Shown one piece after another: positions 33,090 through 61,742 of a stretch of 64,000 nucleotides of DNA. The stretch's first letter is position 1. Each line of letters starts with the position of its first letter. The DNA is taken from positions 2,321,281 to 2,385,280 of the forward strand of contig OU696594.1 in NCBI GenBank assembly GCA_916048095.2, read 5' to 3'. The position numbers and the translations under genes were made by a program. This DNA is from Sacculina carcini. Lineage: Eukaryota > Arthropoda > Thecostraca > Sacculinidae. Under the pieces are notes generated by a model. It was not told the origin of the DNA. It did no database searches and saw only the letters and a program-made list of their open reading frames with translations.

Positions 33090-33098
<9 letters not shown>

Positions 33099-35077: not shown

Positions 35078-35082
<5 letters not shown>

Positions 35083-35142: not shown

Positions 35143-35146
<4 letters not shown>

Positions 35147-36436: not shown

Positions 36437-36446
36437 TATAAATGTA

Positions 36447-36593: not shown

Positions 36594-36624
36594 TATTTTT
36601 TTACACCTGCTGAATGTGATTCAC

Positions 36625-36792
36625 CTGTTGTCTCATGGAGTCGAGATGGTGCTCCAAGTTGCGATATTTGCCAAGAATCGTAGACCTTTCTCGAGCCTCG
36701 TCATCAGCGCTTCTTCTCATCTCCTCGAGCTGCTCGTTCAGGGAGATTTTCAGTTTGCTCATCTGCGACACCTGCACTTCCGCCTCTTCCAA
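36625..36792 (-). CDS. Mhc exon e14 (rod)
   Basis: GTTGACAG|TTGGAA to CAACAG|GTGAAT, 56 codons, phase 0/0. Reads LEEAEVQVSQMSKLKISL and LGKYRNLEHHLDSMRQQ. A second in-frame donor (CAGCAG|GTGTAA) lies 18 nt downstream and would add VNHIQQ; family alignment favours the first. Confidence 0.95.
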
Positions 36793-37058
36793 CTGTCAAC
36801 ACGCGCGCGTGCAGCAGTTGCAACAGCTGGTGTCAATTGATTGCAATAGCGTTATTGAGCGTCCACTCATGGGAGAGGTGGCATTGACATAGATGGCTAG
36901 TTATATGAAAATCGGATTACTGGTAAAATCGTGCTGCTGAATTTCGCTGCTAACGACTCAGTGAATGCTACTAATATCTTGGGAGTGGCCCATTACAAAC
37001 GTCATCCTACTAGACCAGGAATATGATGACTAAGCAATGATATTGATGTTTCGATTAC

Positions 37059-37202
37059 CTGGTGCATGAGGTCAGCGTTGTCCAGCGTCATCTTCTTCTT
37101 GGACATGTCGAAGTCATTGATTGTTCGATGCACTTCGTCCAATTTGGCCGTGATCTCGTTAACCTGTTGCTGCACCATTTTGTTGCTCTTGTCGGTTGAT
37201 TG
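37059..37202 (-). CDS. Mhc exon e13 (rod)
   Basis: GCAACAG|CAATCA to CATCAG|GTAATC, 48 codons, phase 0/0. Reads LDEVHRTINDFDMSKKKMTL. Confidence 0.95.
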
Positions 37203-37279
37203 CTGTTGCCAAACATGAAAATTAATCAATGTGGAATCGAAGACAACATTTATCTGCACGGAGTGTTGTACGATGCTCT

Positions 37280-37550
37280 TGTGCAGGGCCGTTACAAGGT
37301 ATTATGCCCCCACCCCCGAAGGCAATAATTGGAGCCCCCATTATAAATGAAGCACCATTATAATAGTGGCACGACTCTGGGAAAATGCATTTACGAGCAA
37401 CTTATTGGTCTCCTAGGAACTAACGGTACTTTCATGCGCTACTTTATGATAAGTTTCAATAGGATGCGTGAGACAACGAGGCCTCTCATAACTCTCCCTT
37501 ACATCGACCGGGAGGTGCGGCAGGCGGCTGCAACGGTTATGCTGTTTTGT
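37280..37550 (-). repeat. Dispersed repeat, copy 2
   Basis: Inverted diverged copy of 22672-22915: CCCCGAAGGCAATAATTGG and AGCACCATTATAATAG. Intronic. Confidence 0.6.
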
Positions 37551-38178
37551 TTAATATTTTGCTAATTGTTTTTGTCCGTATAATCTAGCCCATTGTAAGT
37601 GCCTTGGACGCTCATGCTTTTCGGAGATAATCACTGGAAGTACGAAAGTACTGAAGGGTATTGAATTCGAATTAAGGCCTCATAATTTGAGGGTTACCGG
37701 TCAGTCAGTGTCAACTACAATGTGTCAGTGTGCACTACTGAATGATGTGTTTCAATTGGCACTATTCTACGCAACAACAAAACAGCAGATGTTGATCTAT
37801 AGAGAATAAACAAAAAAGATGGTTATTTTGCTTTTGATGATGTTTAGCTCTGCGTTCAGTTGACTGAGTCAGATGATAAATCTAGCTAAAGATTAGCTAA
37901 ATATTTTCTATGCTCTATGAGCGCAACATTCTATGTGGTCTTTGGTTAGCTCGGGTTCTATCAAAAAGCATAAGAAGAGTGTTGATTGAAAAGCGTTCGT
38001 TGCTTTTCTGGACATTGGTTAGACTCACCATCTATCGTGGTTTTGTGCTGATCGAATTTGAAGGAAAACCGAATTGACCAACTACAATACATGAGTATCC
38101 GTTATGATATCAATACAGACTATGCTCCACTAGTGGATCAGTCTACGCAAGATAGTCAAACTGCCATTTGCACATTAC
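37551..38178 (-). other. Mhc intron, nothing recognised
   Basis: AT-rich sequence without ORF support or recognisable repeat ends. Confidence 0.5.
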
Positions 38179-38257
38179 TTTTTCCCTGTTGACCATTTCG
38201 ACTGCCTGGCGCGCGTCATGAGCTTCGTTAGCCAGTTGTGTACGCTCTTTCTCCATT
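38179..38257 (-). CDS. Mhc exon e12 (rod)
   Basis: GTATTCAG|AATGGA to GAAAAA|GTAATG, 79 nt (1+78). Reads MEKERTQLANEAHDARQAVE. Short and identified by phase continuity as well as similarity. Confidence 0.9.
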
Positions 38258-39034
38258 CTGAATACATCGACACGCGTCGTCAAATATAGATCAGTAATCA
38301 AACCAGCCGCACTTGAAATTGTTCGTGTTTAATTGCAATTAACAAGCATCAGCATCGTCTTTGCGAGGTGAAACAGCGAAGTGCAACAATCAAATGAAGC
38401 TAGTCGTGAGAGCCAGGACCGGTTCTAAGCAAAGGCAAATTATACAGCCAACTAGGGCTTGCGATTATTGGGGGTCTCACACTGAACTAATGAGAAAACT
38501 TATAAACATTGTGCTAATCATGAATTATTGGAAATAGACATCGTCCTGTCTCTGAATTATTTAGGATTTGATCGAGACTTTGCTGTCATTAAATCTTCAA
38601 TTGTCAATTTTTGTTCATAGTATATGACGCATATACGAATATGCCTATTCTCATTAATTAATTTGTCTGTGTGTATGATGTTTTTATAAACCACACAATT
38701 CATGTGTATGTATGTTTGTGTGTGTGTGTTGTCCGCATGTTTGTTTTCCCTTAGCGGTGTGTTATATATATTTGTTTTTATTTTTTGCTCCAAGATTTGT
38801 GTTTTTGCGTGTGCGTTATAATGTGCGCTAGAATGGCAGTGTAAAATAATCCTATTTACTGCTTGTGGTGTGATCGTGTGCAGTAAGAGTGTATGTGAGA
38901 GATTGTGTCTGAGTGCGTGAACGTGTTAGTGTGTCTATGTGTGATCGTGTATGGTTGAATTCTGTATTGTGTGCGAGAGTGTGTGAGCGAGTGTATATAG
39001 TTGTGTCGGTGTGTGTGTGTGTGTGTTTGTCAAG

Positions 39035-39245
39035 TGTTGATGCCCCGCGGCGGCGAGCGAGTGACTGGCTCGTCGCTGATTGGTTGTTTCGGTGGATGTG
39101 AGGCCTGTGCGTGTGTGTGTGTGTGTGCTCCCGTATGTCACGGTGTGAGCGTGAAGTCGTGTTGGTGGTCTGGTTGTGTTGTGATGTCCTGTAGGAGCCC
39201 GTGGGCATCACTGCCCTACGCACGGTTGTCTGTAAATATATTTTA
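39035..39245 (+). repeat. Dispersed GTG-rich repeat, copy 3
   Basis: Close copy of 28310-28486: GCGGCGAGCGAGTGACTGGC, GT run, CCCGTGGGCATCAC and TGTCTGTAAATATA. Confidence 0.7.
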
Positions 39246-39375
39246 GTTTTTTTTTGTTTACACTGCTATAATCGGCTTTTTTCGTTTCATCGGAAACCAC
39301 CAAGCTCACATTACTTAAGATTTCCACCTAGCCGTCTTGGGATAGTTTAGTGTAGGAGTGATGTGTGAAGCTCAC

Positions 39376-39479
39376 TTGGACTTGCTCTTGTTGAGCTGAT
39401 CAACTTGCTCGGAAAGCTCGGCCACAGCTTCCTGTTGCTTGCGTCGCAGCATGGCCGTTGCAGACTCGTGCAATATCGA
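39376..39479 (-). CDS. Mhc exon e11 (rod)
   Basis: CGTTGCAG|TCGATA to TCCAA|GTGAGC, 104 nt, ends phase 2. Reads ATAMLRRKQQEAVAELSEQV then DQLNKSKS. Confidence 0.95.
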
Positions 39480-39540
39480 CTGCAACGTGGCACACACACA
39501 CACACACATATACACATACACATAGACATACAAGGGCGTA

Positions 39541-39790
39541 GATTTGTGTCGAGGCTCGGGGGATGACAGTCATCATGCATTAGTGCTCATAGTTGACTCA
39601 GTTGGCCAATTGCACGGGACACTCAACCATTTGATGTCTTTAAGCCATTCTAGTCAATTATAACAAACAACTACCTCGATGAAAAGTATATTGCATATAA
39701 ATGCATACACACACATTTGTCGTGCATTGTTACGTTTTTGCTATAATTATTTTGATGACAATATACCAAATGATCTAGGCTATTCAGCAT
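39541..39790 (+). repeat. Intronic duplication, copy 1
   Basis: GTAGATTTGTGTCGAGGCTC through TGAAAAGTATATTGCATATA. A diverged direct copy occurs at 40048-40275. The two copies bracket exon e10. Confidence 0.75.
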
Positions 39791-39838
39791 ATTCATATGC
39801 AATCTCAAACAATATTACCTCCCTATTTCCTCACTCAC

Positions 39839-39964
39839 CTGCTCCTCGAGATCTCGGCGTAATTTATTGAGCTCAGACTCGCGCTTTTTGTTGAGCTCGA
39901 TCTGAGCTGACGTCGCTCCTCCGGCTTCATCCAACCGCTCTCCAAGCTCCTCTAACTCTCGCGC
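39839..39964 (-). CDS. Mhc exon e10 (rod)
   Basis: GTTGCAG|GCGCGA to GAGCAG|GTGAGT, 42 codons, phase 0/0. Reads [20 protein letters not shown] and [15 protein letters not shown]; near-invariant in muscle myosins. Confidence 0.97.
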
Positions 39965-40047
39965 CTGCAACACATACACAGCAACATTGAACTTGGGGCG
40001 TCAGACATTTATGTATTAGCGCGGAAAACAAGGACACCGACCCAGGG

Positions 40048-40275
40048 ACGTAGATTTGTGTGTCGAGGCTCGGAGGATGACAGCCATCATGTATCAGTGT
40101 TCAAAGTGGACCCAATTAGTCAATTTCATGGAACCCTCAACTATTGTATGTCTAGTCAATCACAACACACATACCTCAATGAAAAGTATATTGCATATAA
40201 TTGCATACACACACACATTTGTCGTGTATTGTTGCTTTTTTGCTATGCTGATTTTGATGACTATATACCCAATGA
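40048..40275 (+). repeat. Intronic duplication, copy 2
   Basis: Diverged direct copy of 39541-39790 on the other side of exon e10. Confidence 0.75.
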
Positions 40276-40628
40276 ACTGAACTCAGTAGAATTTCTCGGG
40301 AGTATAATAGTATATTCACCCCCCAGCCAATTCTTCGGGTGGTATATATGCTCCCATACCCCCAGGATCTACGCTCATGCACAGATCAATTATATTAACA
40401 GGATCGATGAGAACATTAGTGCATACTTATGCTTCCTTTTTTATCTTGAGATAGGCTCTTTTGTTAACACCTTCAGTACATGCCGTGTTTGTTACACCTG
40501 TATGTTTTCCTGCTCATTGATGTTATGATCAGGGCTGGATCAGAGCAGGGATTATTTCGTGATCATGAAGTGTGTGGGTGGCATGCGAAGCGAATCGTTA
40601 CAGGTGGGGATTCTAATTTTTGTATGCG

Positions 40629-40802
40629 GTGTATCCCGGATATAAGAGACTCGTATATAAGAGACCCGGTTATAAGAAAACCCCAGTTATTAGAGAGTAT
40701 TTCTTCGGGCCCGTCTTCTATATATTTTACGTGTAATTTTCCCCGGATATAAGAGACTTTTTCTCCACTCCCGACAACTCTCTTATATCCCCGGGCCACA
40801 CT
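40629..40802 (-). mobile_element. pogo/Tigger-like MITE, inverted copy
   Basis: GATATAAGAGACTTTTTCTCC and the right end CCCGGGCCACACTG are the inverse of the copy at 33588-33764. Flanked by TA on the right. Confidence 0.65.
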
Positions 40803-40805
40803 GTA

Positions 40806-41660
40806 AAAATAAAATCTTCTAGGAGGAATCCTGAGGTCAATTTAGGAGGGCTTAGGAGGGTTTAGGAGGGTTAGCTGTTTTAAATCATACGAGATGAAGA
40901 TGAAGAAAAATCGCTCGTATTGAAGATGATGAAAAATCACAGGTGGGATACATGATCTTAACTCAATCCAACTGTCATTCATCTTGGCATAATCACATGA
41001 ACACATTGGCAATATTTCCATATATTTGTACATATATTTCGCTGGTTTTCACTGCTACCTCCTGTTCAACGCTTGGTCTTCAACCGTTAAACACTAAGAT
41101 ACAATCTTACGGTGTTTGAAGGCAGATTTTGTATTTGCTTGATAGGAAATACAGCGGTATGAATTTATTTATTTGCAGCTTTTATTGATTTTTCATTTAT
41201 ATTCATTCATTCATTCATTGACGTTTGTTTGTATAGCGCACGTTAAGACACACGCACGAAAAGACCAATCTTGATGCCAAAAATATAAACAAATAGGTAA
41301 AACACGCCGCTTAGGGAAAACAAAAATGCGGACAACACACACACACACACACAAACATACACTTACATACACACACACATACTCATGCACACACAACTCA
41401 AAATTGAAACATAGCAGTAAGAAGTCTTGAATTATACTTTAATTCCACATACTTAATTAATACTTTAAGTATACTTTTATTTAATTCACACTTTGAATTA
41501 TTTTTTCACTTACATACATAATACGTGGGAGAGATGTGTATGTTGAACATATTACTTTCGAATATTTTAAACAACGGTTAAAAAATTTGTCCTGGCTACA
41601 CCACAGGCTTTTTTCGTCTCAATGCGTCATAGGTTGTTCTTGTTGTTGTTCAATATGATG
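40806..41660 (-). other. Mhc intron with CA microsatellite, no gene
   Basis: AGGAGGGTT repeats (40840-40870), an ACACAC run at about 41336-41353 and AT-rich sequence. Confidence 0.5.
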
Positions 41661-41667
41661 GACTTAC

Positions 41668-41810
41668 CAAATTAGAACGCTGTTTCTCGGATTTGGCTCG
41701 AGATTGTCTTTCTGCCTCCAGCTCTTCTTCCAGCTCTTCCACACGATTCTGTAGCTCTTTGATATTCTTCTGCAACTTGATCACCGAACTCTGCTCGTCC
41801 TCCAGCTTGG
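41668..41810 (-). CDS. Mhc exon e9 (rod, S2)
   Basis: GTTGACAG|CCAAGC to AATTTG|GTAAGT, 143 nt (2+141). Reads [19 protein letters not shown] and [18 protein letters not shown]. Confidence 0.96.
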
Positions 41811-42102
41811 CTGTCAACATCCACATCCACACATCCACACATAAACACCTTGGTTCGATACACATACCTGATCCACATACCTGATACACTAGCCCAAGAG
41901 ATCTTAAACCCACCCTAGGGGCGGTCGCACTCATTGGAATGCAAGCCTGGCTCATAATGGGCGTGAGGTCTCTGTGAAAATTACAGAAAATATATTTAAA
42001 TAAATATAATATATATCTGTAGAAAATGTGTGTTTCATTGAGTGGCGTCATATGGTGTTTTCGAGCGCCAAATTGTGCTGATAATAATATCTGTCAGCTC
42101 AC

Positions 42103-42376
42103 AAGCAATGCCAGTGATGTCTTTTTCTTTGCGAGCGATCGACTGCTCCAGTTCCTTCTTGGACCTCTCCAGGTCCGATATGATTTCCTGTGTCATCTTC
42201 AGCTCTCCTTCAACACGGCGTCGCTCCTTCTCAATTTCTCCACGCTGTCTTTTCTCGCGCTCCAGAGAGTCGTCCAACTCCTCAAGTGTGGCCTCCAACT
42301 TCTGCTTGACTTTCAGCATATGACTGACTTTCTCGTCTTGTGATTGCAGGTCTTCTGACACGTGTAGGTGCTTCTC
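42103..42376 (-). CDS. Mhc exon e8 (rod, S2)
   Basis: TTGATAG|GAGAAG to GCTT|GTGAGC, 274 nt, ends phase 1. Reads KQKLEATLEELDDSLEREKR and RRRVEGELKMTQEIISDLER. Confidence 0.96.
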
Positions 42377-42879
42377 CTATCAACAACACACAAACACACA
42401 TATGTACACACACATGTTTATGAGATCTTCAAAACGATACGCGGCTATATCAAGCATTTGCGATGTTTGTGGCTGAATTGAACGCCATAACTACTCAGCT
42501 CAAATATCAACTGTAGCGAGAAACAGATATAAAAATACAGATATATTGAAACTGACAGTTAACACAGAACATGGAATAAAATAGTCCTGATCAAACCCAC
42601 AATGCACTCACAAAATATCACTCTCAATACATCCACAACTCTACGCGTCACTAAAACACACTCCCTGTGCGGCTTTCATTATTTCATCGCGTTTTTCAGT
42701 CTAATTTCATCGTCGTTTTGAACTACTACGTCATCACCACAACAGCTAATCAAAATTCAGCAAAGCACAACACACAAACACGCCAACGCACACAGACCAC
42801 AACAATGGTATACTAGCATCGTTCGCCAAACCAAAACATCACATTATACATAATATATTCACATTACACTGGTTCGTAC
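42377..42879 (-). other. Mhc intron, nothing recognised
   Basis: CA-rich and AT-rich intronic sequence without recognisable repeat ends. Confidence 0.5.
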
Positions 42880-43119
42880 CTGGAATATTTTCTTGTCACG
42901 ATTCAGTTTGTTGATTGTTTCGTCCTGCTGGGCTATTTCGTCGTTCAAATTGCGAATCTGGTGGTCCTTGGCGGCCTTATCTTGTTCGGCTTTCTGAATG
43001 ACCACCTCGATATCTTCAATGTCGCGTTTTGTTCCATTAACCTCGTGTTCCAGTTGTCTCTTCTCTTTCATCAGATCAGCGCGAGCTTTCTCCTCGCTGG
43101 TTAGTCGATCTTGTGTGTC
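42880..43119 (-). CDS. Mhc exon e7 (rod, S2)
   Basis: ACGACAG|GACACA to TTCCAG|GTACGA, 80 codons, phase 0/0. Reads DIEDIEVVIQKAEQDKAAKD then HQIRNLNDEIAQQDETINKL. Confidence 0.97.
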
Positions 43120-43331
43120 CTGTCGTGTTATGTTCACACACAAACACACACATCCGTTAATAAATACTCATCCGCACTACGCGGAATATCATTACCGATG
43201 AGGTAAATAACGTGATTTTTTCAAAGTTGATACGTAGTTTATTGCTGCGTGGATCGTTTGCATATTTTATCTATCGAAAAACGTGTTCAATGGGAGAGTA
43301 CTGCAATGGTCAGTGGATAAGACGGACTTAC

Positions 43332-43541
43332 GTTCAGTTCCCTTTCCACATCAGCCTTCTGAGCCATCAGCCTGTCTTGATTTGCGTAGAACTCTGTGAG
43401 GTTTCCTTTAGATGACTCTAATTGAGCCATCATGTCGGCTTTTTCTTCTTCGATTCTGATGTTGGATTCTTCGAGCTGCTTGCGTCTGCTCTCTTCTTTC
43501 TCCAGCATGTCCACAATTCGATTGGCCTCCTGCTCCAATGC
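43332..43541 (-). CDS. Mhc exon e6 (rod, S2)
   Basis: GCACACAG|GCATTG to CTGAAC|GTAAGT, 70 codons, phase 0/0. Start of the coiled coil after the head-rod junction: LEQEANRIVDMLEKEESRRK. Confidence 0.94.
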
Positions 43542-43702
43542 CTGTGTGCAGAAAGCTTACATAAGTCTACGTCTACCCATCAAACTTGGACAACTTTTTT
43601 ACTATTTAAACCACTGAGATTTGGTAAAGGATCATTGGAGAACATGAGGACCAAAAATTTTCGTTTGGGCGTACGAAGTCAAGATGTAATTGAGTAGCAT
43701 AC

Positions 43703-43829
43703 TTTTATTTCGTCTTCGATTCTTGTCTCATGCAGCATGGGACGCAGCTTGACCCACAGACGGAACCAAGGCCAGTTCTTCATTGCCATATAGGCTTTCA
43801 CCGATCGCTGAATCACCATCAGACCCTCC
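43703..43829 (-). CDS. Mhc exon e5 (second IQ, head-rod junction)
   Basis: TGATACAG|GGAGGG to ATAAAA|GTATGC, 127 nt (1+126). Reads LMVIQRSVKAYMAMKNWPW (regulatory light-chain IQ site with the WPW hook) and RLWVKLRPMLHE. Confidence 0.95.
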
Positions 43830-44477
43830 CTGTATCATACAACAGCGACGCAACCAAATACAGATTGTCAGATTACAATCAGAGAGCTGTAATGTCGCTC
43901 GAAAGAGTGTTTGTGTTTCCTCGAGTCTACACCAGGACCGACCATGAAGGACATATGCATACTAGGCGGTTACCTAGGACCTCATATTGGTGGGGGACTC
44001 GTACAGGAATCACAGAGTAATAAAGCAGTGCGTGTAACATTGACAAATCCTCTTGCAATTGCATCGGGCACAACGAGTTTTTGCAAGTTGAAATAAATAA
44101 GAAACGATTTGAGAATTACAAGGACACCCGAGCCCATGAACAGTCGGGCAATTCTATCTATCGAAAAAGATGTCCTTGAGTCCTTGAATTTATCACAACG
44201 TATTCGAGACTTTGCTATGATCAAAGAACGAATAGTTAATTTTGTAGAACTTTTATGCAATCTGTACGAATATGGTTGTATAAAATTTAGTTATTAATTC
44301 ATCTATATGAATGTTAAATAGTTTTAATAAATTGTACAATTTTATCTTTCGCTATTCGTTTATCATATTCCATGTCATCTTATACTGCCAATTTTGTTTT
44401 GCCTAGAGCCTCCATTTATCTAAGTCCTGCCTTTTCAATAGAAAGGATGTGATGTGCAACCAGTGCGAGCAATTGAC

Positions 44478-44614
44478 CTTTGGTCACACAGACACTTGAA
44501 CTCATATCTGCTGAAGTATCCACGTATCCATGCCTGCATCCAGGCGAATATCCTGCTGAGACGTTCATCTCGCAACTCTTCCATTTGACCCAGCACTCCA
44601 GCGCGGAAGAACAC
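44478..44614 (-). CDS. Mhc exon e4 (end of converter, first IQ)
   Basis: TTGTAAG|GTGTTC to CAAAG|GTCAAT, 137 nt, ends phase 2. Reads [18 protein letters not shown] and [16 protein letters not shown], the essential light-chain IQ site. Confidence 0.96.
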
Positions 44615-45010
44615 CTTACAACATCAAATTCCACATTTTCAACACCACATTGGACATTTGTTGTGGTAGAGTGGTAAACTTTCTGATGACTTAAATCATC
44701 ATAAATGAGTTTTTTACTTTCTTTGTCGTATTTTCTCCAGTTCCAATTTAATTGGCATTACATTGGTATTTATTGGATTAGTTAGTTATGAACTCATCAG
44801 CTCCCGAGTCTTTTATGATTTATGGCGTGTATCTGATAGTTTCGGCTGTCTACTTGATAGTTTTTCCAGGTAACTAATTTCGTATTGGATTAAACACAGT
44901 AACACATACATAATTGGCCTAAAATGTTCATTAGAAACATGATCAAGCGTTGAGCTTGGATTATGCTACTGGATTTGTCTGTAATTATTAATCAAAATAA
45001 TAATAATGAC

Positions 45011-45128
45011 CTTGGTGTTGCCCAGACGGAACAAATCTTTGTCCAACTTGATTTTGTCGAAACAAACAGCTGCAGATTCTCTTTCCTCCTTGCAAGCTGT
45101 CATCTCGGCGGCTGCCAGGATTTTGTAG
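45011..45128 (-). CDS. Mhc exon e3 (converter)
   Basis: GTGTGCAG|CTACAAA to ACCAAG|GTCATT, 118 nt (1+117). Reads YKILAAAEMTACKEERESAA and FDKIKLDKDLFRLGNTK, the converter that amplifies the motor stroke. Its first base completes the Arg codon begun at 46628-46629. Confidence 0.94.
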
Positions 45129-45915: not shown

Positions 45916-46627
45916 GAAGTTTCATGATTCTCTGAAATAAGAAACTGTCTCTACTGATAAAGTCTCAAAAATTTTGGAGTGCACCTCGTATGAAGCCTGG
46001 ATAGCGCCTTAACTGTCCAACAGGCTCTCGATGTTATTCTTCTGACGATGGAAAGTTTGAAATAGTGTTTAGTAGTGGTTTCGACGCCGTTCGGTCGCTG
46101 AGTTATTGATACGGGAGCACAGCATTATCATGGCGCTCGAAAAAGCTTTCGCAAGTTCCGCATATATCTATATTGTCTCCCACAAACTGAGAAATTTCCA
46201 TATTTGCATTGCTAGCTGGTATTGCTGAACATTTGTGGAAACATATGCGTAAAACTACATAACATTTCATAAATTACTCAAAATTAATACTCGAAGTACA
46301 AATATATACAATATAATTATACAATTTAATATACAATTATAATAAAATATGATACTTAAATAAATTACATAAAGTGTATGTAAATCAATACTTATGTAAT
46401 GTAAAAAATGTAAATCATTACATTACATAAGTTACTAAAAATACATACTTTATTTACCATCATATTCAATACAATTACACAGTTGAATATATAATTAATT
46501 TACAATAGAATGGACACTTGAAAAAGACGTACAAAATTAATCATTCAAAATGCATATTGGAATAAATAATAACATTTGAAAACATATGATATATGAAAGT
46601 ATTTTTATTAGAAAAAGCGGAATTCAC
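45916..46627 (-). other. Mhc intron, AT-rich, no gene
   Basis: TATAATATAC-type low-complexity sequence between the mariner relic and the split exon e2. Confidence 0.5.
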
Positions 46628-46635
46628 CGGTGCTT
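46628..46635 (-). pseudogene. Mhc exon e2, distal 8 nt stranded beyond element L
   Basis: These 8 nt (one TGCTT target copy plus CCG in minus sense) complete exon e2 and abut the donor CG|GTGAAT. They are separated from the rest of the exon by element L. The codon split here matches the first base of e3. Confidence 0.9.
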
Positions 46636-47006
46636 TGTGGAGAAATGCATTCGGTAGGCGTGGGGCGTGGACAGTCACCACTCGTGAACCTGAACTTGAA
46701 CTGACGCGACCTCTAGCGGCCGCTCAGTCAGTTATGGTTCAAGACGCTGTTTGCACACAGTCGTGTTCGTACATATCAAGTAAGCGTATTACTGTATGTC
46801 ATTGTGGTATGTGTTATTACTGTATGTCAGTGTGTTGATGTTGATGTAATCAAGGCGTATTTATTGATCGAGTGGTGATCAATTATGTTATTAATTGTTA
46901 TTGCAACTGTTGATTTCATTTATGTTAATTGTTTCATTGTGTGTTCACAGTCAGAAACATTCGTTGTGTTAATATGACCGTCCACACGAATGTCGTTTTT
47001 TGATCA
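46636..47006 (+). repeat. 5' LTR of element L
   Basis: 371 bp starting TGTGGAGAAA and ending TTTGATCA. Contains a GTAAGC...TTCACAG interval that behaves as an intron (see 46780-46950). Confidence 0.95.
46780..46950 (+). other. Predicted 171-nt intron within the LTR of element L
   Basis: GT at 46780-46781 (CATATCAA|GTAAGC) and AG at 46949-46950 (GTTCACAG|TCAG). The sequence just inside the LTR is complementary to the two flanks joined precisely at these borders, which is indirect evidence that this interval is spliced from the transcript. The intron itself is retained in both LTRs. Confidence 0.7.
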
Positions 47007-47925
47007 TGTTTCTGATTGATATGTACGAACACGACTCAAACTCTTTAATCTTACCCCGTACGCGACCGAACTGGGGAGTTATCTTGCCACACTCGCACCG
47101 CATTTGTTTTTGCAGTTGGCTGTCGTCCCACGATCGCCTTTGTGTGGTGGGTGACTGCTGCAGTGACTGCCGCGCTCTTCTTTGGTTGTCTCTCCGGTAT
47201 GCGCTGGCGTCAATCTTCGAGTTGCCGTTCAGCGTCGCTCTTGCAGCGATTTCTTTACCGTCGATGAAAGCAACTGTCTCGCCAAGCGTCATGTCGTCTA
47301 AGCCTGTCGACCCAAGGACTTCCCGTCTGATGTTTTCGTCGCACAAGCCGTTCAGCAGCACCATTTTCACCATATCGTCGGTGTAATTTATGTGGACCGT
47401 GCTGGAGCAGGCTGTGTTGACACATTTGGTCGACTTCGTCCACTGACAGACGTTTGCGACTCCACGAAGGCGGGCGACGTATTGTCTGACGTGCTCGCCA
47501 GGCTGCTGTGTCGACTGCAGGAGCTTAGATCGCCTCACGCTCAGCGGCTCACTGATGACTGTCAGTCTCTTCATTGCGGTGAGAACTTCATCCGTCGACC
47601 TGTCGGCGATAGACGGATCCTGTCTGAAGAGAGCTCCTTCGACGTCAGGCTCGCAGCACGCTAACAGCTGGGACGTCACTTGATCCGCAGCCATGTCGGT
47701 GCCGTTTCTGAACATTTCCCACCTCCGGGTGAAGGCGGCCCAGTCGTCCTCAGCGATGTCATGCTGTAGAGTGGGTCGGTTGATTTTCGGTGGTTTTGGG
47801 CGACTGTCGGCGACATCATGCACATTCTTCTGATGCAGCTTCATCAGTTGTATACATGTGGCCATATCGTCTGCCCTTTTCACCTCTCCACAACCGGCCG
47901 CTTCGCACTTCAACGATACAGTCAT
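46969..47925 (-). CDS. Gag-like ORF of element L, antisense to pol
   Basis: An intact 318-codon ORF. The N-terminal part (DDWAAFTRRWEMFRNGTD, then QVTSQLLACC) and TQQPGEHVRQYVARLRG resemble the capsid region of this gypsy branch. It ends in a first knuckle-like CECGKITPQFGRVRGK, after which real gag sequence appears to stop. The last ~20 codons read through the primer-site region and LTR. It lies in the opposite orientation to pol, which is not expected of a working gypsy element. The second knuckle is missing. Confidence 0.75.
   Translation of the reverse strand: MTVSLKCEAAGCGEVKRADDMATCIQLMKLHQKNVHDVADSRPKPPKINRPTLQHDIAEDDWAAFTRRWEMFRNGTDMAADQVTSQLLACCEPDVEGALFRQDPSIADRSTDEVLTAMKRLTVISEPLSVRRSKLLQSTQQPGEHVRQYVARLRGVANVCQWTKSTKCVNTACSSTVHINYTDDMVKMVLLNGLCDENIRREVLGSTGLDDMTLGETVAFIDGKEIAARATLNGNSKIDASAYRRDNQRRARQSLQQSPTTQRRSWDDSQLQKQMRCECGKITPQFGRVRGKIKEFESCSYISIRNMIKKRHSCGRSY
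47007..47036 (+). promoter_or_regulatory. Putative self-complementary primer-binding site of element L
   Basis: These 30 nt abut the 5' LTR and start TGTTTCTGATTGATATG. They are the exact reverse complement of 46759-46779 joined to 46951-46959. No TGG tRNA primer match is present. The geometry matches Tf1-type self-priming, where the transcript 5' end folds onto the site next to the LTR, but with a spliced primer. Confidence 0.55.
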
Positions 47926-50900
47926 GTTGAAACGACTCTCAGAGTTTTCCTATCACCAACAGTGTTTGACACGCGACGAACTTCCAAAAACTCAGAAACT
48001 TACTTACTAACTTACTTACTGCAAGTATCACCTCCACCAAAAAGGTCGGCAAGAATTACGGCCATAGCTGACTCTGGCGCACAAACGTGCCTGATGGGGC
48101 GGTGCCTGCTGTGGAGATTCGGGTTAGGCCGCCATCAACTATCGCCAGCTGACAAGCGCATCGTGGCCGCCAACAACCAGGAGATCAACGTGCTCGGGTT
48201 ACTTCACGTGAAAATTTCCGGGCAGAGCGCCAAGGGTCAACAGATGCATACATTCGCCACAGTGTATGTGACCAACACCACAGGGAGGTTCTACCTGAGC
48301 CGTGATGCGCTAGAAGGCCTTGGGGTCATCGCACACGATTTCCCTCGCATAGGTGCTGCTCCGATGAGGTGCCAAAACAGCACAATTGTTATCGAGCAGG
48401 CTACTACGGCACCATGCGGTTGCCCAAGACGTACGCCACCACCAGAGCGGCCAGAGAAACTTCCCGTAACGCCCTCTCTCTCGCGATTAGCGGACATGAA
48501 AGCGTGGCTGATGGAGCGGTACGCATCGTCAACGTTTAATGTCTGCCCGCATCAACCGCTTCCAGTCATGACAGGGCCGCCTATGGAAATACGGGTGGAC
48601 ACTGACGCGAAGGCAGTGGTGACACGAAGACCACCAAGCGTGCCCGTACACTGGCAAAAGGAGGTCGCCGACCAGCTGGAGAGGGACGTGGCGCTGGGAG
48701 TCATCGAGCGTGTTCCACCAAATACGCCTGTAACATGGCTGCATAACATGGTGCTGACGCCCAAAATGGACGGTACTCCCAGGAGGACGGTCGACCTGCA
48801 GCCCCTCAACAAACATAGCGTGCGGGAGACTCATCACACAGTGCCACCAAGCAAACAAGCCAAGGCGGTGCCACCGATGACTATAAAATCAGTCACCGAC
48901 GCGTGGAATGGCTTTCATGCGATCGAGATAAGGCCCGAAGATCGCCACAAGACCACATTCCTCACGGAACAAGGAAGATTCCGGTACAGACGAGCACCAA
49001 TGGGGTTCCTTGCGTCACAAGATGCCTATACTCAGCGATATGACACGATCATTACCGATGTCCCCAGAAAAACCAAATGCGTAGACGACACACTGCTCTG
49101 GGACACAGACTTGGCTACACACTGGTGGCGGATTATCGACTATTTACACTTGACAGGAAAGAATGGTGTAATCCTGAACCCGAAAAAATTTCAATTTTCG
49201 GAAACAGAAGTGGACTTCGCGGGGTTTCAGATCACATCCAGCCAGATAAAGCCACTTCCGAAGTATCTGAACGCGATCTCATCATTCCCGACACCGGCTA
49301 ACATCACTGACATCCGTGCATGGTTCGGGTTGGTAAATCAGGTATCGCATTACGGCAGAACGTCCGGCTTGATGGAGCCGTTCAAGCCGTTTCTGAGCCC
49401 CAGAGTGGCTTTCAGATGGGATGCCGACCTCGATAAAGCTTTCAATCAGTCCAAAGAGGCCATCATCAAGGAGATAGAGAACGGCGTGGAAATCTTTGAC
49501 CCTCAGAGGACTACCTGCTTGAATCCAGATTGGTCGAAGACCGGAGTAGGGTACTGGTTGCGCCAAAAGTACTGCGCATGCAACTCGGATGTTCCGGGGT
49601 GCTGTGAAAACGGATGGAGGATAGCAGTAGCCGGCTCAAGATTTCTCAGAGATGCAGAAAAAAGGTACGCTCCCATTGAGGGTGAAGCGTTAGCTGTTGC
49701 ATGGGCCCTGGAGGACACGCGTTTTTTCACCATGGGTTGTCAGCGGTTGATAGTTACAACGGACCACAAACCACTTGTCAAAATTCTGGGAGATAGAGCT
49801 CTTGATGACATAAAAAATCCCCGACTGTTCCGCTTGAAGCAGAGAACACTGATGTGGCAATATCGAATCGTGCACGTCCCTGGAAAGTCAATACCGGCAG
49901 CAGATGCGACATCAAGGAACCCGTCGTCGGATTCTGACGAGACAATTGGTGTAAGTGGCCTCTCTGTCATACGCTGCCCGGTCAACAGGGACGACGACAT
50001 GGAGAAAACAGTTGTGGCAACGGCGAAACTTTTGTCACAGCCCCTTGGCGCCATCACCTGGGAGCAAGTGAAGAAGTGCACGGCTCAAGACACCAATCTA
50101 CAGGCACTCATGGACATGATAGAGCACGGATTCCCAGCATCACGCGATCACGTTTCTGAGACGTTGCAGCCGTACTGGCAGTACCGGAACGACATGACCG
50201 TGGTCGACGACGTGGTAATGATAAACAACAGGATTATCATCCCAGCATCGCTGCAGAACGAAGTTCTGAAAATATTGCACGCTGCACATCAGGGCACAAG
50301 CCGCATGTTCAGCAGAGCGCACGACGTGGTCTTTTGGCCGGGGATGTCACGAGACATCGAGCACACTCGGGCTAAATGCACCGACTGCTGGAGAATGTCC
50401 CCGTCACAGTCGAATCTGCCGCCTCGACAACCAAACGTGCCCACCAGGCCATTTCAAGCCATCGCTGCTGATTTCGGTCTGCTGAAGGGAATTGGATATC
50501 TGATTATAGTGGACAGATTCAGCGGATGGCCTCACATCGTGGCGGCAAAATCCGGTGCAAAAGGTTTTCTGTCAGCTATAATTGCATATTTCTCGACATT
50601 CGGCGTAGCGGAGGAAATTAGCACCGACGGCGGTCCAGAATTCACAGCAAGAGAAACAGAGGATTTCTTCACGAGATGGGGCGTGAAACACCGCATCTCA
50701 TCAGCATATTATCCTCAGTCAAATGGCAGAGCTGAAGTTGCTGTGAAGGCAATGAAGCGCTTGCTGACATCGCACACCGACATGTATGGGAGTGTTGACA
50801 CGGAAGCCGTGGCGGCTGGTCTGCTTCAATACCGCAACACGCCTGATCCGGAGACAAAAGTGTCGCCTGCGCAAGTGGTTTTCGGCCGAAGGATGTCGGA

Positions 50901-51666
50901 CATGCTCCCCATACCACCACATTCGTCTGTGTTCAAGAGTCCAGTGGTTCACCCGGTGTGGAGGGACGCATGGAATCATCAGGAGGACGCTCTCCGACTG
51001 CGCTTCATGAAGCAGATGGACAGACAGCAGTGTAATCGTCCGTTGCCACCACTACAGCCAGGGGACAAAGTGTTGCTGCAAAATCAGACAGGACCACACT
51101 GCAAACGGTGGGATAGAACAGGAGTGGTGGTGGAAGCAAGACCGTTTGATCAATACCACGTCAAGATCCACGGGTCTGGGCGTCTCACAATCAGAAATCG
51201 CAAGTTTCTACGAAAGGTAATGGAACTAAGCGACTCGTCACCTCTATCACCCGCACCAGAGCAGCTTGCACATCTACCGGAGACAAAGAACATGGTCCAC
51301 AAGGCAGAGTGTTCATCACCATCGATGGAGATGCCAAAGTGCGCGGATCGAGGGCCACCATCGCCGACTCCGTCGCAGCAGGAGGCAGTCACGCCACCGA
51401 CGGATGACATGGCGTCCAGTCAACCACCGACCACAGCACTCACGCCGGACGAGTCGTGTCAAACAGAGAGACACCCAGAGAGTCATACCGAGTTACATCC
51501 ACCAGCAGCGTCACGACCGCGCAGAAACCGACGCCCTCCTGCCTACCTGCAGGACTATGTCACCGGCGTGAAGTTTCGGGGTCGAAACTGGGGGGGATGT
51601 GGAGAAATGCATTCGGTAGGCGTGGGGCGTGGACAGTCACCACTCGTGAACCTGAACTTGAACTGA
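47818..51666 (+). CDS. Pol polyprotein of element L
   Basis: One 1282-codon frame. True pol begins near 48030, before the protease active site AIADSGAQTCLMG. RT follows (TPRRTVDLQPLNKHS, AWNGFHAIEIRPED, FRYRRAPMGFLAS, catalytic CVDDTLLWD), then RNase H (LNPDWSKTGVGYWL, PIEGEALAVAWAL, TTDHKPLVKIL, AADATSR). Integrase has HHCC (LHAAHQG, CTDCW) and DDE residues (AIAADFG, STDGGPEF, SNGRAEVAV). The protein ends with a proline-rich tail reading into the LTR. All catalytic residues appear intact. Confidence 0.93.
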   Translation: MHILLMQLHQLYTCGHIVCPFHLSTTGRFALQRYSHVETTLRVFLSPTVFDTRRTSKNSETYLLTYLLQVSPPPKRSARITAIADSGAQTCLMGRCLLWRFGLGRHQLSPADKRIVAANNQEINVLGLLHVKISGQSAKGQQMHTFATVYVTNTTGRFYLSRDALEGLGVIAHDFPRIGAAPMRCQNSTIVIEQATTAPCGCPRRTPPPERPEKLPVTPSLSRLADMKAWLMERYASSTFNVCPHQPLPVMTGPPMEIRVDTDAKAVVTRRPPSVPVHWQKEVADQLERDVALGVIERVPPNTPVTWLHNMVLTPKMDGTPRRTVDLQPLNKHSVRETHHTVPPSKQAKAVPPMTIKSVTDAWNGFHAIEIRPEDRHKTTFLTEQGRFRYRRAPMGFLASQDAYTQRYDTIITDVPRKTKCVDDTLLWDTDLATHWWRIIDYLHLTGKNGVILNPKKFQFSETEVDFAGFQITSSQIKPLPKYLNAISSFPTPANITDIRAWFGLVNQVSHYGRTSGLMEPFKPFLSPRVAFRWDADLDKAFNQSKEAIIKEIENGVEIFDPQRTTCLNPDWSKTGVGYWLRQKYCACNSDVPGCCENGWRIAVAGSRFLRDAEKRYAPIEGEALAVAWALEDTRFFTMGCQRLIVTTDHKPLVKILGDRALDDIKNPRLFRLKQRTLMWQYRIVHVPGKSIPAADATSRNPSSDSDETIGVSGLSVIRCPVNRDDDMEKTVVATAKLLSQPLGAITWEQVKKCTAQDTNLQALMDMIEHGFPASRDHVSETLQPYWQYRNDMTVVDDVVMINNRIIIPASLQNEVLKILHAAHQGTSRMFSRAHDVVFWPGMSRDIEHTRAKCTDCWRMSPSQSNLPPRQPNVPTRPFQAIAADFGLLKGIGYLIIVDRFSGWPHIVAAKSGAKGFLSAIIAYFSTFGVAEEISTDGGPEFTARETEDFFTRWGVKHRISSAYYPQSNGRAEVAVKAMKRLLTSHTDMYGSVDTEAVAAGLLQYRNTPDPETKVSPAQVVFGRRMSDMLPIPPHSSVFKSPVVHPVWRDAWNHQEDALRLRFMKQMDRQQCNRPLPPLQPGDKVLLQNQTGPHCKRWDRTGVVVEARPFDQYHVKIHGSGRLTIRNRKFLRKVMELSDSSPLSPAPEQLAHLPETKNMVHKAECSSPSMEMPKCADRGPPSPTPSQQEAVTPPTDDMASSQPPTTALTPDESCQTERHPESHTELHPPAASRPRRNRRPPAYLQDYVTGVKFRGRNWGGCGEMHSVGVGRGQSPLVNLNLN

Positions 51667-51968
51667 CGCGACCTCTAGCGGCCGCTCAGTCAGTTATGGT
51701 TCAAGACGCTGTTTGCACACAGTCGTGTTCGTACATATCAAGTAAGCGTATTACTGTATGTCATTGTGGTATGTGTTATTACTGTATGTCAGTGTGTTGA
51801 TGTTGATGTAATCAAGGCGTATTTATTGATCGAGTGGTGATCAATTATGTTATTAATTGTTATTGCCACTGTTGATTTCATTTATGTTAATTGTTTCATT
51901 GTGTGTTCACAGTCAGAAACATTCGTTGTGTTAATATGACCGTCCACACGAATGTCGTTTTTTGATCA
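51598..51968 (+). repeat. 3' LTR of element L
   Basis: 371 bp, one substitution from the 5' LTR. Followed by the target copy TGCTT and directly by Mhc coding sequence. Confidence 0.95.
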
Positions 51969-52083
51969 TGCTTGAAGTCTGGGTAGACCATTCTGTTGGG
52001 GAAGCCCTTACGACAAATGCGGATTCCTTCGAGTACACCATTACAGGTTAATTGATGCATCACCAGGTGTGAATCAATCACTC
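51969..52083 (-). pseudogene. Mhc exon e2 (SH2/SH1 helices), broken by element L
   Basis: Acceptor TTAACAG|GAGTGA. Reads [17 protein letters not shown] and [16 protein letters not shown], including the two reactive cysteines (SH2 in LTCNG, SH1 in IRICRKG). After the Phe-Lys codons the exon runs into the 3' LTR of L; translation would continue about 26 residues into LTR sequence and stop. The exon's last 3 nt and donor lie at 46628-46630, 5.3 kb away. Confidence 0.95.
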
Positions 52084-52160
52084 CTGTTAACAAAACACAC
52101 ACACACAGACAGACACACAGACAGACACACAAATATTTACAGCTGCCAACAGTTTCCCAC

Positions 52161-52510
52161 GCACGAGTGTTGATATCATACGTTTACATGTAAATTAGTC
52201 ATAAATAGGAAGACCCTCGCTTTCAACATCACGGGCTAACTATAAATACTTTAGCATGACTGACAGAGCAAACCCAATATGTTGACTTCTACCAGGATAC
52301 TTGAAATTATCAGGTGAAGTATTGTTTGAGCATTAATAGAGGTCGGTTTGTGTTTCATGGCAACCGCAAGATCTGTGGTGCCAGATACCAGAACTTTGGT
52401 ATCTGCGTTTCCAGCTATGGTTAGGCAAAAATTATCAATTAATATCAATAAAGTCGGAAATAATGAATTATGAAAAAAGGTTTGGTGTCGCTTTCACGCC
52501 GTCAATACAA
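52161..52510 (-). repeat. Dispersed ~350-bp repeat, copy 2
   Basis: Strong similarity to 28703-29040 (GCACGAGTGTTGATATCATA at the start; TGTTGACTTCTACCAGGATA inside). Lies just upstream of exon e2 in Mhc sense. Confidence 0.75.
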
Positions 52511-53105
52511 TATTATGATTTGTTTCGTTTGGCGTTTGTTGTTGTTTGTTGGGCACTGTATAATCACACCTTTGTGCGGGTGCATAGCGGAATTTAAGAC
52601 GTTATTACAATTCAAAGTATTTACCATCATTCATATATCACCACTCCATGATTCATTATATTTTATTTTCAATTAATTGGGGAGCTGCACTGAATACATG
52701 TACAATTTGTACGCAATCTAGACTTTTCAAGCCGACGCAATCCATCAGATGTGTGTAACTTATATCCTGCTCTTGTGGTGTAACGATCAATGATTGCATG
52801 AATTAACCATCACACACGAGTATCTGTATATATCTACTGTATCGATCCCTGATCATGTACGACTAGCTGCATGGAGATAGGGATATCCCGCTTCAGTCCA
52901 GACTCGCTAAAATTTTCCCTTACTAACCTAACCTCACCTCACCAACTGTAGAACGTGCCTCATCAATGATCTCATCGACAACAACCGGCAAATTCTCGCT
53001 GAGGAGTATTGTGATAGTTGTGTTCGCAAACATATTTTTAAACCTAATTTTTTGCATTGTTCTGCTTGTACCGAGACACTAATATTACGCATACACAAGT
53101 ATGTG

Positions 53106-53152
<47 letters not shown>

Positions 53153-53338
53153 GTGTGTATGGCGTAGTGCCCACGTCACCCACTGCAGAAAAATCGATGT
53201 GAGGTCTTATTTATTTCGGAGTATAAGACCTCGCATCGAGTTTGACTACACGGCGGCGCATAAGGACAAGTTTGTCAGAAGAAATTATTGAAAAGCAGAA
53301 TGAAAATAATTGTATGAAGCGAGAAAATAATGACGGAC
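52511..53338 (-). other. Mhc intron with TG microsatellite
   Basis: A GT run (about 53101-53158), a short AACCTAACCTCACC stretch near 52925 and AT-rich sequence. No further exon. Confidence 0.5.
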
Positions 53339-53426
53339 CGGCCTGTTTGAGCTCGTTGGGAATGATGCAACGAATGAAGTGCGGTTGAGTGCTGTTTAGC
53401 GTCTTCATCAAGCCGTTCAGTTGCTC
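53339..53426 (-). CDS. Mhc exon e1 in window (motor, actin-binding region)
   Basis: TGTACAG|GAGCAA to CAGGCCG|GTCCGT, 88 nt, ends phase 1. Reads [20 protein letters not shown] and [10 protein letters not shown], the strut/helix preceding the SH helices. Motor exons 5' of this one are not in the window. Confidence 0.96.
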
Positions 53427-54073
53427 CTGTACATCAACACAGCGACGCAACATTGCAACATCAAGCAAATTCAGTGCTGGCATATTCAGTGTTGGTCAAG
53501 AAATGCAGGCTGACATATACAAGAAAACCTCTAATTAAACGGTACATCTAATTAAACACCACATTGATGAATTCTTCCCTTTTCGCTATAGCTTTTACAG
53601 ACTGATTTTTATTTGTGAATTTGTGATTATTTACCAGTAATCACCCTGTATTTGTGTTTTTGTTAAATGAATATACATACGTTATCTGTTTATTTTTTTC
53701 ATTCATAAAATTTAAATCTTCTCAAAATACTTACTTTCTGGTCGAAAAATAAAGTGGCATCCTCTACTTGAACGACACTACGAGGAAAGTTTGAAAAGTA
53801 GAACGACATGCCGCTCAAATAGAGCTTTTACGGCATTTGCGCATACACGTTCATACATAAATATACAGATACATTATTGTCGGGCGAATTTTCACGAATA
53901 TACAAGATAATTTTTGACAGTTTACAGAAAACATACAATACAACTCTTCACACCTAAAACATGGCATAAATACAAAAACCCAGATACAAACACATTCCAT
54001 CGCTATTTCGAATGTAAAACAGAACATTTACCGATAATATCATAGTTTATAATTGATATTATCTTTTATATAC
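53427..54073 (-). other. Mhc intron up to Polinton A
   Basis: AT-rich. A TTTTCAAACTTTCCTCGTAG block (minus sense, near 53790) looks like a mariner terminal region. No myosin exon is found. Confidence 0.45.
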
Positions 54074-55032
54074 AGTAGAAGAGTACTACACTTTGTCACA
54101 TTTTAACCTAACTTTTTTGTGTATACCTAACCTAACCTAACCTAACCTAACCTAACTTTTTTTTGTTTTTTTTAACCTAACCTAACTTTTTTTGGTTTTT
54201 TTTCAACCTAACCTAACTTTTTTTAGTTTTTTTTAACCTAACCTAACTTTTTTTAGTTTTTTTAACCTAACCTAACTTTTTTATAGTTTTTTTTAACCTA
54301 ACCTAACTTCTTTAGTTTTTTAACCGAACCTAACTTATTTTAACCTAACCTAACTTTTTTAACCTAACCTAACTTTTTTAACCTAACCTAACTTCTTTTT
54401 TTAACCTAACCTAACTTTTTTTTAACCTAACCTAACTTTTTTTTCTTTATTCTATTCCTAACCCGACCCAATCCAACTTTTATTTTCATTTCTTATTCTT
54501 CCTTTCTTATTATATTTATTCTTTATTCTATGCTCAACCTAACTTTTTTTCTTTATTCTATACCCAGCCCGACCCAATCCAACTTTTAGTTTTATTTCTT
54601 ATTCTTCCTTTCTTATTATATTTACTCTTTATTCTATGCCCAACTTTTATTTTTTATTTCCTATTCTTCCTTTCTTATTATATTTATTCTTTATTCTATG
54701 CCCAACTTTTATTTTTTTCCTTTATTTCTATTTTATGTCACGATACTCATTATATCGGGATCGCCAAGTCGATGTTTGGCAGAGACGTGAATATAATAAT
54801 TTTCAATCATACTTGAAATATATATAAAAAACGGTTTGACTAAATCGGTCGCAAAGACAATGTTCCAATATGACGATGAATCACTCGCCAAGTTTATATA
54901 AAGTGTCTGGTTTATGTCAAATACTGCGGTAAGGATTAAAATGCCAGATGAATTCATTGGCGTCAAGCCGAGGATGAATATATTTACCTAATACACAGGT
55001 ATAGGATTAAAACATTTGCCAGTAACAAAGAC
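54074..55032. repeat. Terminal repeat of Polinton A
   Basis: Matches 58487-59395 in direct orientation, with length variation in the CCTAA minisatellite and a few substitutions in the inner 400 bp. Ends 25 bp before the integrase stop codon. Confidence 0.85.
54118..54440. repeat. AACCTAACCTAAC/poly-T minisatellite
   Basis: Units of about 20-28 bp consist of AACCTAACCTAACTTTTTTT with GTTTTTTT variants. The motif is the complement of TTAGG, the arthropod-type telomeric repeat, but it is interrupted by T runs. Confidence 0.85.
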
Positions 55033-56735: not shown

Positions 56736-57395
56736 CTATTTATACCTCAAAGCGGGAAGATAAACTATTATGGGTTGTTCCAGCACATTGCTACGCACAC
56801 GTAGTCTGTTGTCAGTTTGTTGACGCAGATCCACAAGCAAATGACCGTACATTTTCTTCATTACGTCTCTATAAACATCCATAATGAACCTGATATTATC
56901 TGGCATGTACTGTTGAGCAAATGCACGCAGAGGTGTTTGATCTCGAAAATTACGGAAAAATACATAATAATTTGTATTTAGGCTGATTGTGCGGTAGTTG
57001 GGCGACTTGAGAAACGTGTTTTGGGTGACAAATAGTACACTCATGTTGTCGTGACGCCACGTTTTCGTAAACATGTCACGTACAACAGGCCCTTCCACAG
57101 CATCCAGTAAGTCGTCGATAATGACCATGCAACCATTACCGTATTTATGTTTGCTTGCCAATCGTTGAATTTCCTCATGCGATGGCACTCCGTACCGCAT
57201 CTCGTTAACTATATCCTTATTTATATGATCGGGCGCTGCAGTTCCGTGGCAATACAGTACATAATCGGGGCTTCGGGTGAGCACTTGGTCCGCCCGTGTC
57301 ATCATGTCGACTATAAATTGACTCTTACCGGACCCTGAAGGACCGGACAAGATCATTGTGAACGGTGTAACAAGACGTGGGTCAAACGTTTCCAT
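56736..57395 (-). CDS. FtsK/HerA-type DNA packaging ATPase
   Basis: 219 codons. Walker A GPSGSGKS near residue 19, Walker B CMVIIDDL near residue 90 and the sensor-like LFVTQN near residue 124. This is the A32-type genome-packaging motor of Polintons and related viruses. The length is normal for the family and all motifs are intact. Its presence with capsid genes supports virion formation. Confidence 0.92.
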   Translation of the reverse strand: METFDPRLVTPFTMILSGPSGSGKSQFIVDMMTRADQVLTRSPDYVLYCHGTAAPDHINKDIVNEMRYGVPSHEEIQRLASKHKYGNGCMVIIDDLLDAVEGPVVRDMFTKTWRHDNMSVLFVTQNTFLKSPNYRTISLNTNYYVFFRNFRDQTPLRAFAQQYMPDNIRFIMDVYRDVMKKMYGHLLVDLRQQTDNRLRVRSNVLEQPIIVYLPALRYK

Positions 57396-57678
57396 ACTCG
57401 CCGTACCGATGAAACTGATCTACGTTTAACTATAAGGGTATTATATAAAGTATTTGCTGATGTGAGACCGGTTTTGCGCTGAGCATCACTAGCCAAACAC
57501 CGTCGGCGCTTAATCGGATCATATAACAATCCCACAATTACCAGCTCTGTAATTAAACATTCAACATGACTGACAATGAGCAATAGTGAAAGAAGCAGCA
57601 ATATTATATGCGTCACCATCTCGGTGATTATCAATTGAATGACACGTTTACACGTCAACACTTGTATATTAAAGCCTG

Positions 57679-60786: not shown

Positions 60787-61311
60787 TTAAAATGGTAGCA
60801 TGCGCGGTGTACACAGATTCATTGCATACATCAATTTAGCGAAATGTTGACAACGTAAAATACAGCAGTTTGTAGGAATGACATGATTATATGGACACGG
60901 CGTGATGTTGGGTAGTACATGTATGTTGCGTGCGTTCATGGATAAGTAGTCAGGTAGGATGTCTTCGAGATTTTCAATGTGTAGTTCAAGTAGATGCGAA
61001 AGTCGACGAGCCTTGTCGAGTCCTTTGGCGTAGATGTGGTCGGGTGCTAGACGTTGAATGAGGGAACTTGCGTCGCGTAGCCTTTCTTCATACTTGTGCG
61101 TGTTGTAAGGATTGTAATTGTATTCCAAGCCGTGTAGGGTCGCCGTCAAAAATAGAAAATAGTTGCGTCGCTCAGCGTTGAGTTTTAAATGTGGAGGCGG
61201 TAAGATGGTGTGCCACAAGTACCCCGAACACAGGTCATGCACAGCCAATTCCTTGACAACAAAAGGCGAATCCTTGTGCTGGAAACCGTCGCAGTCTACA
61301 AGTATGACCAT
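60787..61311 (-). CDS. Conserved mobile-element protein with DxDGF...VKELAV pattern
   Basis: The start is taken at the Met of MVILVDCDGFQ (61311); it overlaps the end of the protease gene by 16 nt, as expected in this packed block. Residues DCDGF, VVKELAV, PPPHLKL, ERRNYFLFL and HGLEYN match a pattern I associate with a family of invertebrate element-borne proteins of unknown, possibly nuclease-like, activity. Four Cys near the C-terminus (NCCILRCQHF) could bind metal. Function not established. Confidence 0.55.
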   Translation of the reverse strand: MVILVDCDGFQHKDSPFVVKELAVHDLCSGYLWHTILPPPHLKLNAERRNYFLFLTATLHGLEYNYNPYNTHKYEERLRDASSLIQRLAPDHIYAKGLDKARRLSHLLELHIENLEDILPDYLSMNARNIHVLPNITPCPYNHVIPTNCCILRCQHFAKLMYAMNLCTPRMLPF

Positions 61312-61742
61312 ATCAGCGCTAAAAGCTGATTGTTGATAGCAGGATCGGTGGATAGGCACGAAACAAAATCGTGCAGATCCCAGCCGGCGTCAAACAATGC
61401 AACAAATAGAGCACAGTACTGTCCACACACGTCCGAGTCCGGCGCCTGAATGACGCGCGTGTTCAACATACATCGACTGTAATTGACATGTTTGTTTATA
61501 AAATTTACAAACGAGGGATGCCAGATGGGTGAGTTGCCAGACGAGTCGAAATATTGGAGATTTTCACCGTCCCAGGCAAACACGACCCAATGCAGACCCG
61601 ATTGCCAGCGCGGTTGTATATTCACAATAATTGATGTGCGCACACCACGAGCAAATGTGAAATGTTTTAGCCGGTCGCACGCCCAAGCCCCTCGAAATGT
61701 GGCGACTGTGTCGAGCAGCCGTTCCAATTCAAGAGCGTTCAT
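61296..61742 (-). CDS. Adenain-like maturation cysteine protease (C5 family)
   Basis: 148 codons. Catalytic His in SGLHWVVFAWD, acidic residue in LQYFDSSGN and Cys in SDVCGQYCALF match the adenovirus/Polinton maturation protease order. It processes capsid and core precursors in particles. The start ATG overlaps the capsid gene stop by 4 nt. Intact. Confidence 0.88.
   Translation of the reverse strand: MNALELERLLDTVATFRGAWACDRLKHFTFARGVRTSIIVNIQPRWQSGLHWVVFAWDGENLQYFDSSGNSPIWHPSFVNFINKHVNYSRCMLNTRVIQAPDSDVCGQYCALFVALFDAGWDLHDFVSCLSTDPAINNQLLALIWSYL

Follow-up and report, generated by a model that had tools for sequence, protein, structure and literature searches.

The window analysed here is a 64,000-nt stretch of a Sacculina carcini contig (OU696594.1, positions 2,321,281 to 2,385,280, called C35 below) in a 264-Mb assembly of 43 contigs. 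It contains part of a myosin heavy chain gene (Mhc), of which the second exon is split by a long terminal repeat (LTR) retrotransposon. This young insertion is genuine, yet it affects only one of two versions of the gene, because a near-identical copy with a precise empty site lies on the same contig. Mhc is located on the minus strand, and when the element is ignored, 23 exons join in phase over 3,882 nt with one terminal stop and none internal. In our exon reading, e1 (53339-53426) is the first Mhc exon of the window copy and starts at residue 656 of the Pollicipes protein. The 118-nt e2 is divided into a main part (51969-52083) and its stranded last 8 nt (46628-46635, target duplication included), followed by the donor GT at 46626-46627, while the 21 exons from e3 to e23, including the stop codon, occupy 28487-45128 and contain no internal stops. 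The best database match is the muscle Mhc of Pollicipes pollicipes (73% identity over 100% of the 1247-aa query), followed by unnamed metagenome proteins, Daphnia, insects and lobster (65-66%), among the best 120 of 7,958 matches. Judged from these matches, the gene is a barnacle-type muscle Mhc and its host a barnacle relative. The motor and coiled-coil rod of a class II muscle Mhc are both recognized, except that the motor before residue 656 is absent from the window copy.

The inserted element spans 46636-51968 (5,333 bp), is antisense to Mhc and belongs to the Ty3/gypsy type, as its direct LTRs with TG...CA ends and a target duplication within the 4-6 bp of that type indicate. The left LTR (46636-47006) and the right LTR (51598-51968), both on the plus strand and 371 bp long, differ at 1 of 371 positions (LTR position 270). 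The duplicated target TGCTT is found at 46631-46635 and 51969-51973, and both copies are Mhc coding sequence within e2. It follows that a recent LTR-element insertion into Mhc coding sequence is present, and in this respect the preliminary description is borne out: it had reported a young element in a coding exon with a coding target duplication, the last 8 nt of e2 and the splice donor stranded beyond the element, and exons in phase once the element is left aside. It had also placed a premature stop about 26 residues into the LTR. The stop is confirmed, and the count turned out to be 24 residues past PDFK, with the stop codon at 51898-51896, so that Mhc translation would end there with the insert present. 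Skipping of e2 is rejected as a rescue, since loss of 118 nt would shift the frame too. Known LTR insertion alleles in coding exons show the same target duplication, near-identical LTRs and premature stop; unlike them, this one has its filled and empty versions in one assembly, and its filled copy also lacks the 5' part of the gene.

The whole genome was searched with window 51970-53430, and 40 of 357 first-look candidates were scored. This segment matches itself and C35:3112198-3113672 at 96%, while the other matches listed are only partial. The second copy lies about 739 kb from the window copy, and window 27196-54073 aligns with C35:3092934-3114315 at 96-99% in pieces. At the empty site, window position 46635 joins 51969 directly and TGCTT is present once (C35:3112197-3112201). 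Because the same stretch exists there without the insert and with a single TGCTT, the insertion is more than a chance arrangement. The block continues leftward in the places sampled (window 23500-27300 at 99%, 14265-17500 at 95%, 2341-2769 at 92%), so that 2341-54073 in all recurs on C35 at 92-99% identity without the insert, at offsets ranging from about +732 to about +744 kb. Upstream of e1, pieces covering Pollicipes residues 181-655 are present in the second copy, which thus has motor exons absent from the window copy.

The reading of a broken conserved gene is therefore changed by the second copy with its empty site. The preliminary description had proposed to search the genome for a second muscle Mhc, and genome searches yielded the near-identical uninterrupted copy on C35 plus at least two further muscle-type Mhc loci on contig C36. 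Given these genes, there is no need to suppose that the animal is without this myosin: when the same contig holds an empty counterpart, disruption of an essential gene in one window does not have to mean that the gene is disrupted in the animal. That the sole working muscle Mhc was destroyed, or that splicing removes the element from the transcript, is what the window suggests when read by itself, but we consider both highly improbable: the second copy, with its empty site and motor exons, contradicts them, and the frame shift on e2 skipping and the stop after 24 residues also speak against them. One of the C36 loci (C36:4864001-4904000) carries tandem alternative motor exons for Pollicipes residues ~335-378, 470-526, 656-686 and 726-765, an arrangement like that of insect Mhc. 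Unlike this locus, the C35 gene shows a single version of each of its exons that were found.

The LTR element is not the only lesion of the window copy, because its 5' motor part is missing as well. Homology between the two Mhc copies stops at 54073, and a Polinton-type terminal repeat begins there. None of the Pollicipes Mhc residues 1-655 was found in the window and the next 70 kb (134 kb, with 7.5 kb of N), by which 5' exons just past the Polinton are rejected. A simple Polinton insertion with the gene resuming behind it is not borne out either, as the 22 nt that follow in the second copy were not found in the 134 kb with up to 3 edits allowed.

For the coding parts of the two copies, 19 of 3,882 nt differ, all of them synonymous, and 0 of 1293 residues are changed, while noncoding divergence is 1.9%. 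With a synonymous divergence (dS) of 0.024, about 36 nonsynonymous changes would be expected if the window copy had been unconstrained since the split, against none observed (P ~2e-16). The window copy was therefore constrained until very recently, and the constraint can have been lost no earlier than in the final ~8% of its lineage (95% bound); an old dead paralogue is rejected on the same ground. Purifying selection on both copies until recently, together with several muscle-type Mhc loci in the genome, would fit two full-length functional paralogues, of which the window copy underwent its truncation and insertion only in recent times. We regard this as improbable, as it requires a duplication plus a recent loss, and a second 5' half left no trace in three within-gene probes.

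The noncoding divergence is a mosaic, ranging from 0 to 5.45% per kb (chi-square 194, 21 degrees of freedom) with one identical run of 1,461 bp. Such a pattern is expected of recombining alleles and is read here as allelic history, though gene conversion between paralogues could give similar unevenness. Divergence that is allele-like, constrained and mosaic in this way is what a haplotypic duplication would show, with the reservation that conversion could also account for the mosaic. On balance we lean, with modest confidence, to the explanation that both copies represent a single locus, whose two haplotypes the assembly has retained as separate stretches. The insertion would then amount to a null that is heterozygous or redundant, and the animal would not have lost its sole muscle myosin. 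False haplotypic duplications likewise form near-identical colinear blocks with allele-like divergence, according to the excerpts of PMC9516828 and PMC8917513, and retained haplotypes are suspected in the Pollicipes assembly, for which an excerpt of the latter gives 21.1% duplicated core genes before filtering. The C35 copies differ from such duplications in their spacing of 739 kb and in their seemingly abrupt ends.

Several observations weigh against two haplotypes. Besides the 739-kb spacing itself, a probe at C35:1900001 has no partner near +740 kb among the matches listed (40 of 4708 candidates scored). Beyond the other end, none of the matches scored for the probes C35:3115001, 3117001, 3125801 and 3175001 (40 candidates each) was a near-identical second copy; the probes matched only themselves and shorter, less similar repeats. 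The block thus seems to end on both sides, and a true duplication explains such ends more simply. The junction of the window copy with the Polinton is gap-free. The far-left probe (C35:2200001-2202500), with a partner at ~100%, falls in repetitive sequence; its C35 partner is nonetheless clearly the closest, and the remaining copies are less similar over the length of the probe. Among 17 myosin-head loci listed (65 of 154 candidates scored), none has a near-identical twin, so the duplication does not look assembly-wide; one C35/C36 pair has equal scores of 100.1 bits, though over different spans. Finally, nothing matching residues 1-180 turned up for the second copy in the available letters (N from C35:3132281), and its completeness is only partly established for this reason.

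These observations would suit the next best explanation, a real and very recent segmental duplication of at least 175 kb on C35 that copied a diverged haplotype, which we hold to be a serious possibility though not the probable one. The window copy would then have ended in an Mhc intron at the Polinton, and the LTR element would later have hit an already dead 3' fragment. The apparent block ends, the gap-free junction at 54073 with its Polinton-type terminal repeat and the lack of any sign of assembly-wide doubling among the 17 myosin loci listed are in its favor, but 0 of 1293 residues differ where ~36 changes would be expected of a copy dead since the split. Any duplication must therefore be far younger than its 1.9% noncoding divergence. 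Among the options of the preliminary description, a redundant paralogue in early decay and an assembly of one haplotype both stay possible in altered form, with filled and empty versions coexisting in the assembly, and a segregating null allele may apply if the two copies are alleles. The filled and empty pair is datable and can be used for studying the tolerance of a null insertion in muscle myosin.

The anatomy of the element is a more surprising part than its insertion, and one that can be tested with RNA data. An open pol frame runs from stop to stop over 47770-51663 on the plus strand, in which Pfam domains follow the Ty3/gypsy order of reverse transcriptase (~48862-49233), ribonuclease H (~49417-49833), integrase zinc finger and integrase core (integrase ~50239-50715). 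The reverse transcriptase family RVT_1 scores 27 bits in the whole frame, just below Pfam's 29.6, and 31.9 in the piece. In the 314 aa past the integrase core, no Pfam family was matched at E <=1, so the chromodomain of Tf1/sushi chromoviruses was not detected there. The LTR search listed 40 matches at 95-100% identity (40 of 60 candidates scored), which include 15 pairs about 5 kb apart, the window's among them, and 10 single LTRs.

Plus-sense gag before pol, as in other Ty3/gypsy elements, is not found in the window copy. Instead, a 971-bp leader-gag segment (47029-47999) is inverted onto the minus strand, with 99.2% identity to the plus-sense segment of C11:2444900, and is followed by a 20-nt filler (48000-48019) that replaces 235 bp of that normal copy. 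C11:2444900 is the only other copy read into gag and has gag in plus sense, so that antisense gag as a family trait is rejected; on this one comparison, the inverted gag is a defect of the window copy. The element shows no plus-sense gag of its own, and if the inversion preceded integration, it must have relied on proteins from other copies for its mobilisation.

Directly after the left LTR, the 30 nt at 47007-47036 (plus strand) are the exact reverse complement of LTR 124-144 plus LTR 316-324, that is, of an LTR leader joined from 144 to 316. The skipped 171 nt start with GTAAGC and end with CACAG, like an intron of the GT-AG class. The first 12 of these 30 nt are identical in 15 of 15 other copies, after which those copies diverge from the window copy; the 15 are taken from the 16 non-window LTR matches that cover all 376 query bases, 14 by pattern and the 15th by eye. 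These 12 nt are a perfect complement to the spliced leader, whereas only 9 nt are complementary to the unspliced LTR. As a control for chance, 200 shuffles were made with every LTR GT-AG deletion of at least 40 nt allowed, and the best match was 7 nt. The inverted gag extends from an 8-nt match between leader and gag (AGTCGTGT) precisely up to the border of the 12-nt site.

The antisense leader and the inverted gag suggest that the element primed itself from a spliced leader and that its plus-strand transfer failed. We put the chances about evenly that the family is self-primed by a primer that exists only after splicing, the spliced leader pairing across its junction with the 12-nt site of unspliced genome RNA, and that the Mhc copy is a fossil in which the 30-nt primer was copied and then mis-transferred into gag. 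Reverse transcription would be primed by the element's own 5' leader after splicing; in the Mhc copy, plus-strand start would have copied the whole 30-nt leader, which would anneal through the 8-nt match inside gag and then run back to the primer site, leaving gag inverted. If true, this would be a retroelement in which splicing sets the RNA that serves as primer apart from the genome RNA.

It speaks against the spliced primer that the leader splice was deduced only from DNA sequence, and that template switching at a 3-nt microhomology could produce the same join. Genomic LTRs also keep the 171 nt, and the primer must therefore come from an RNA other than the template. A plainer but less exact account, which concerns the element only and which we find possible though less persuasive, is unspliced self-priming through the 9 nt of LTR 316-324 with two template switches at 3-nt and 8-nt microhomologies. 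It agrees with the intact genomic LTRs, the 9-nt complement exists without splicing, and the microhomologies are present; but it needs accidental joins at CAA|GTAAGC and CACAG|TCAG, and a stop that happens to coincide with the end of the 12-nt rather than the 9-nt match.

A primer site of the tRNA type would begin with TGG. ARAGORN detected no tRNA in the window, and a TGG occurs 10 nt further on, as a possible start of such a site. Self-priming has been described in Tf1/sushi and plant elements (excerpt of PMC6317226), and in Tf1 of Schizosaccharomyces pombe the first 11 nt of its own RNA pair with the primer site (excerpt of PMC7175516). The element described here is like Tf1 and the Tf1/sushi group in its Ty3-type domain order and in a post-LTR stretch that is complementary to its own LTR and lacks an initial TGG. 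It is unlike Tf1 in that pairing over all 12 nt requires 171 nt of the LTR to be spliced out, and in having no detected chromodomain. A splicing-dependent retroelement primer has no precedent among the literature matches listed, as far as their excerpts go.

Besides, the rest of the window and the genome provided some further observations. From 54074 to the end of the window at 64000 lies the start of a Polinton/Maverick-like nest, with an A32-like ATPase (56739-57419) and an adenain-like protease (61299-61775), both on the minus strand (Pfam). The nest, which runs from C35:2375354 past the end of the window, also includes an integrase-like frame (by eye), and a direct second terminal repeat is located at 58487; a 6.3-kb inverted copy with 98.7% identity begins about 25 kb past its partner. 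Inside the terminal repeat, 54099-54720 consists of TAACC-type and T-rich repeats, which we take to resemble arthropod telomere units. At the other end of the window, 2789-11641 likely represents nested LTR elements, with peptide repeats at 2789/11423 (outer) and 5783/10075 (inner) and gag/pol-like frames between them. Elsewhere in the genome, an open frame of 1,059 aa runs without interruption at C7:1241414-1243426 and matches the myosin head model over positions 2-679; in an intron-rich genome, it is perhaps a retrogene.

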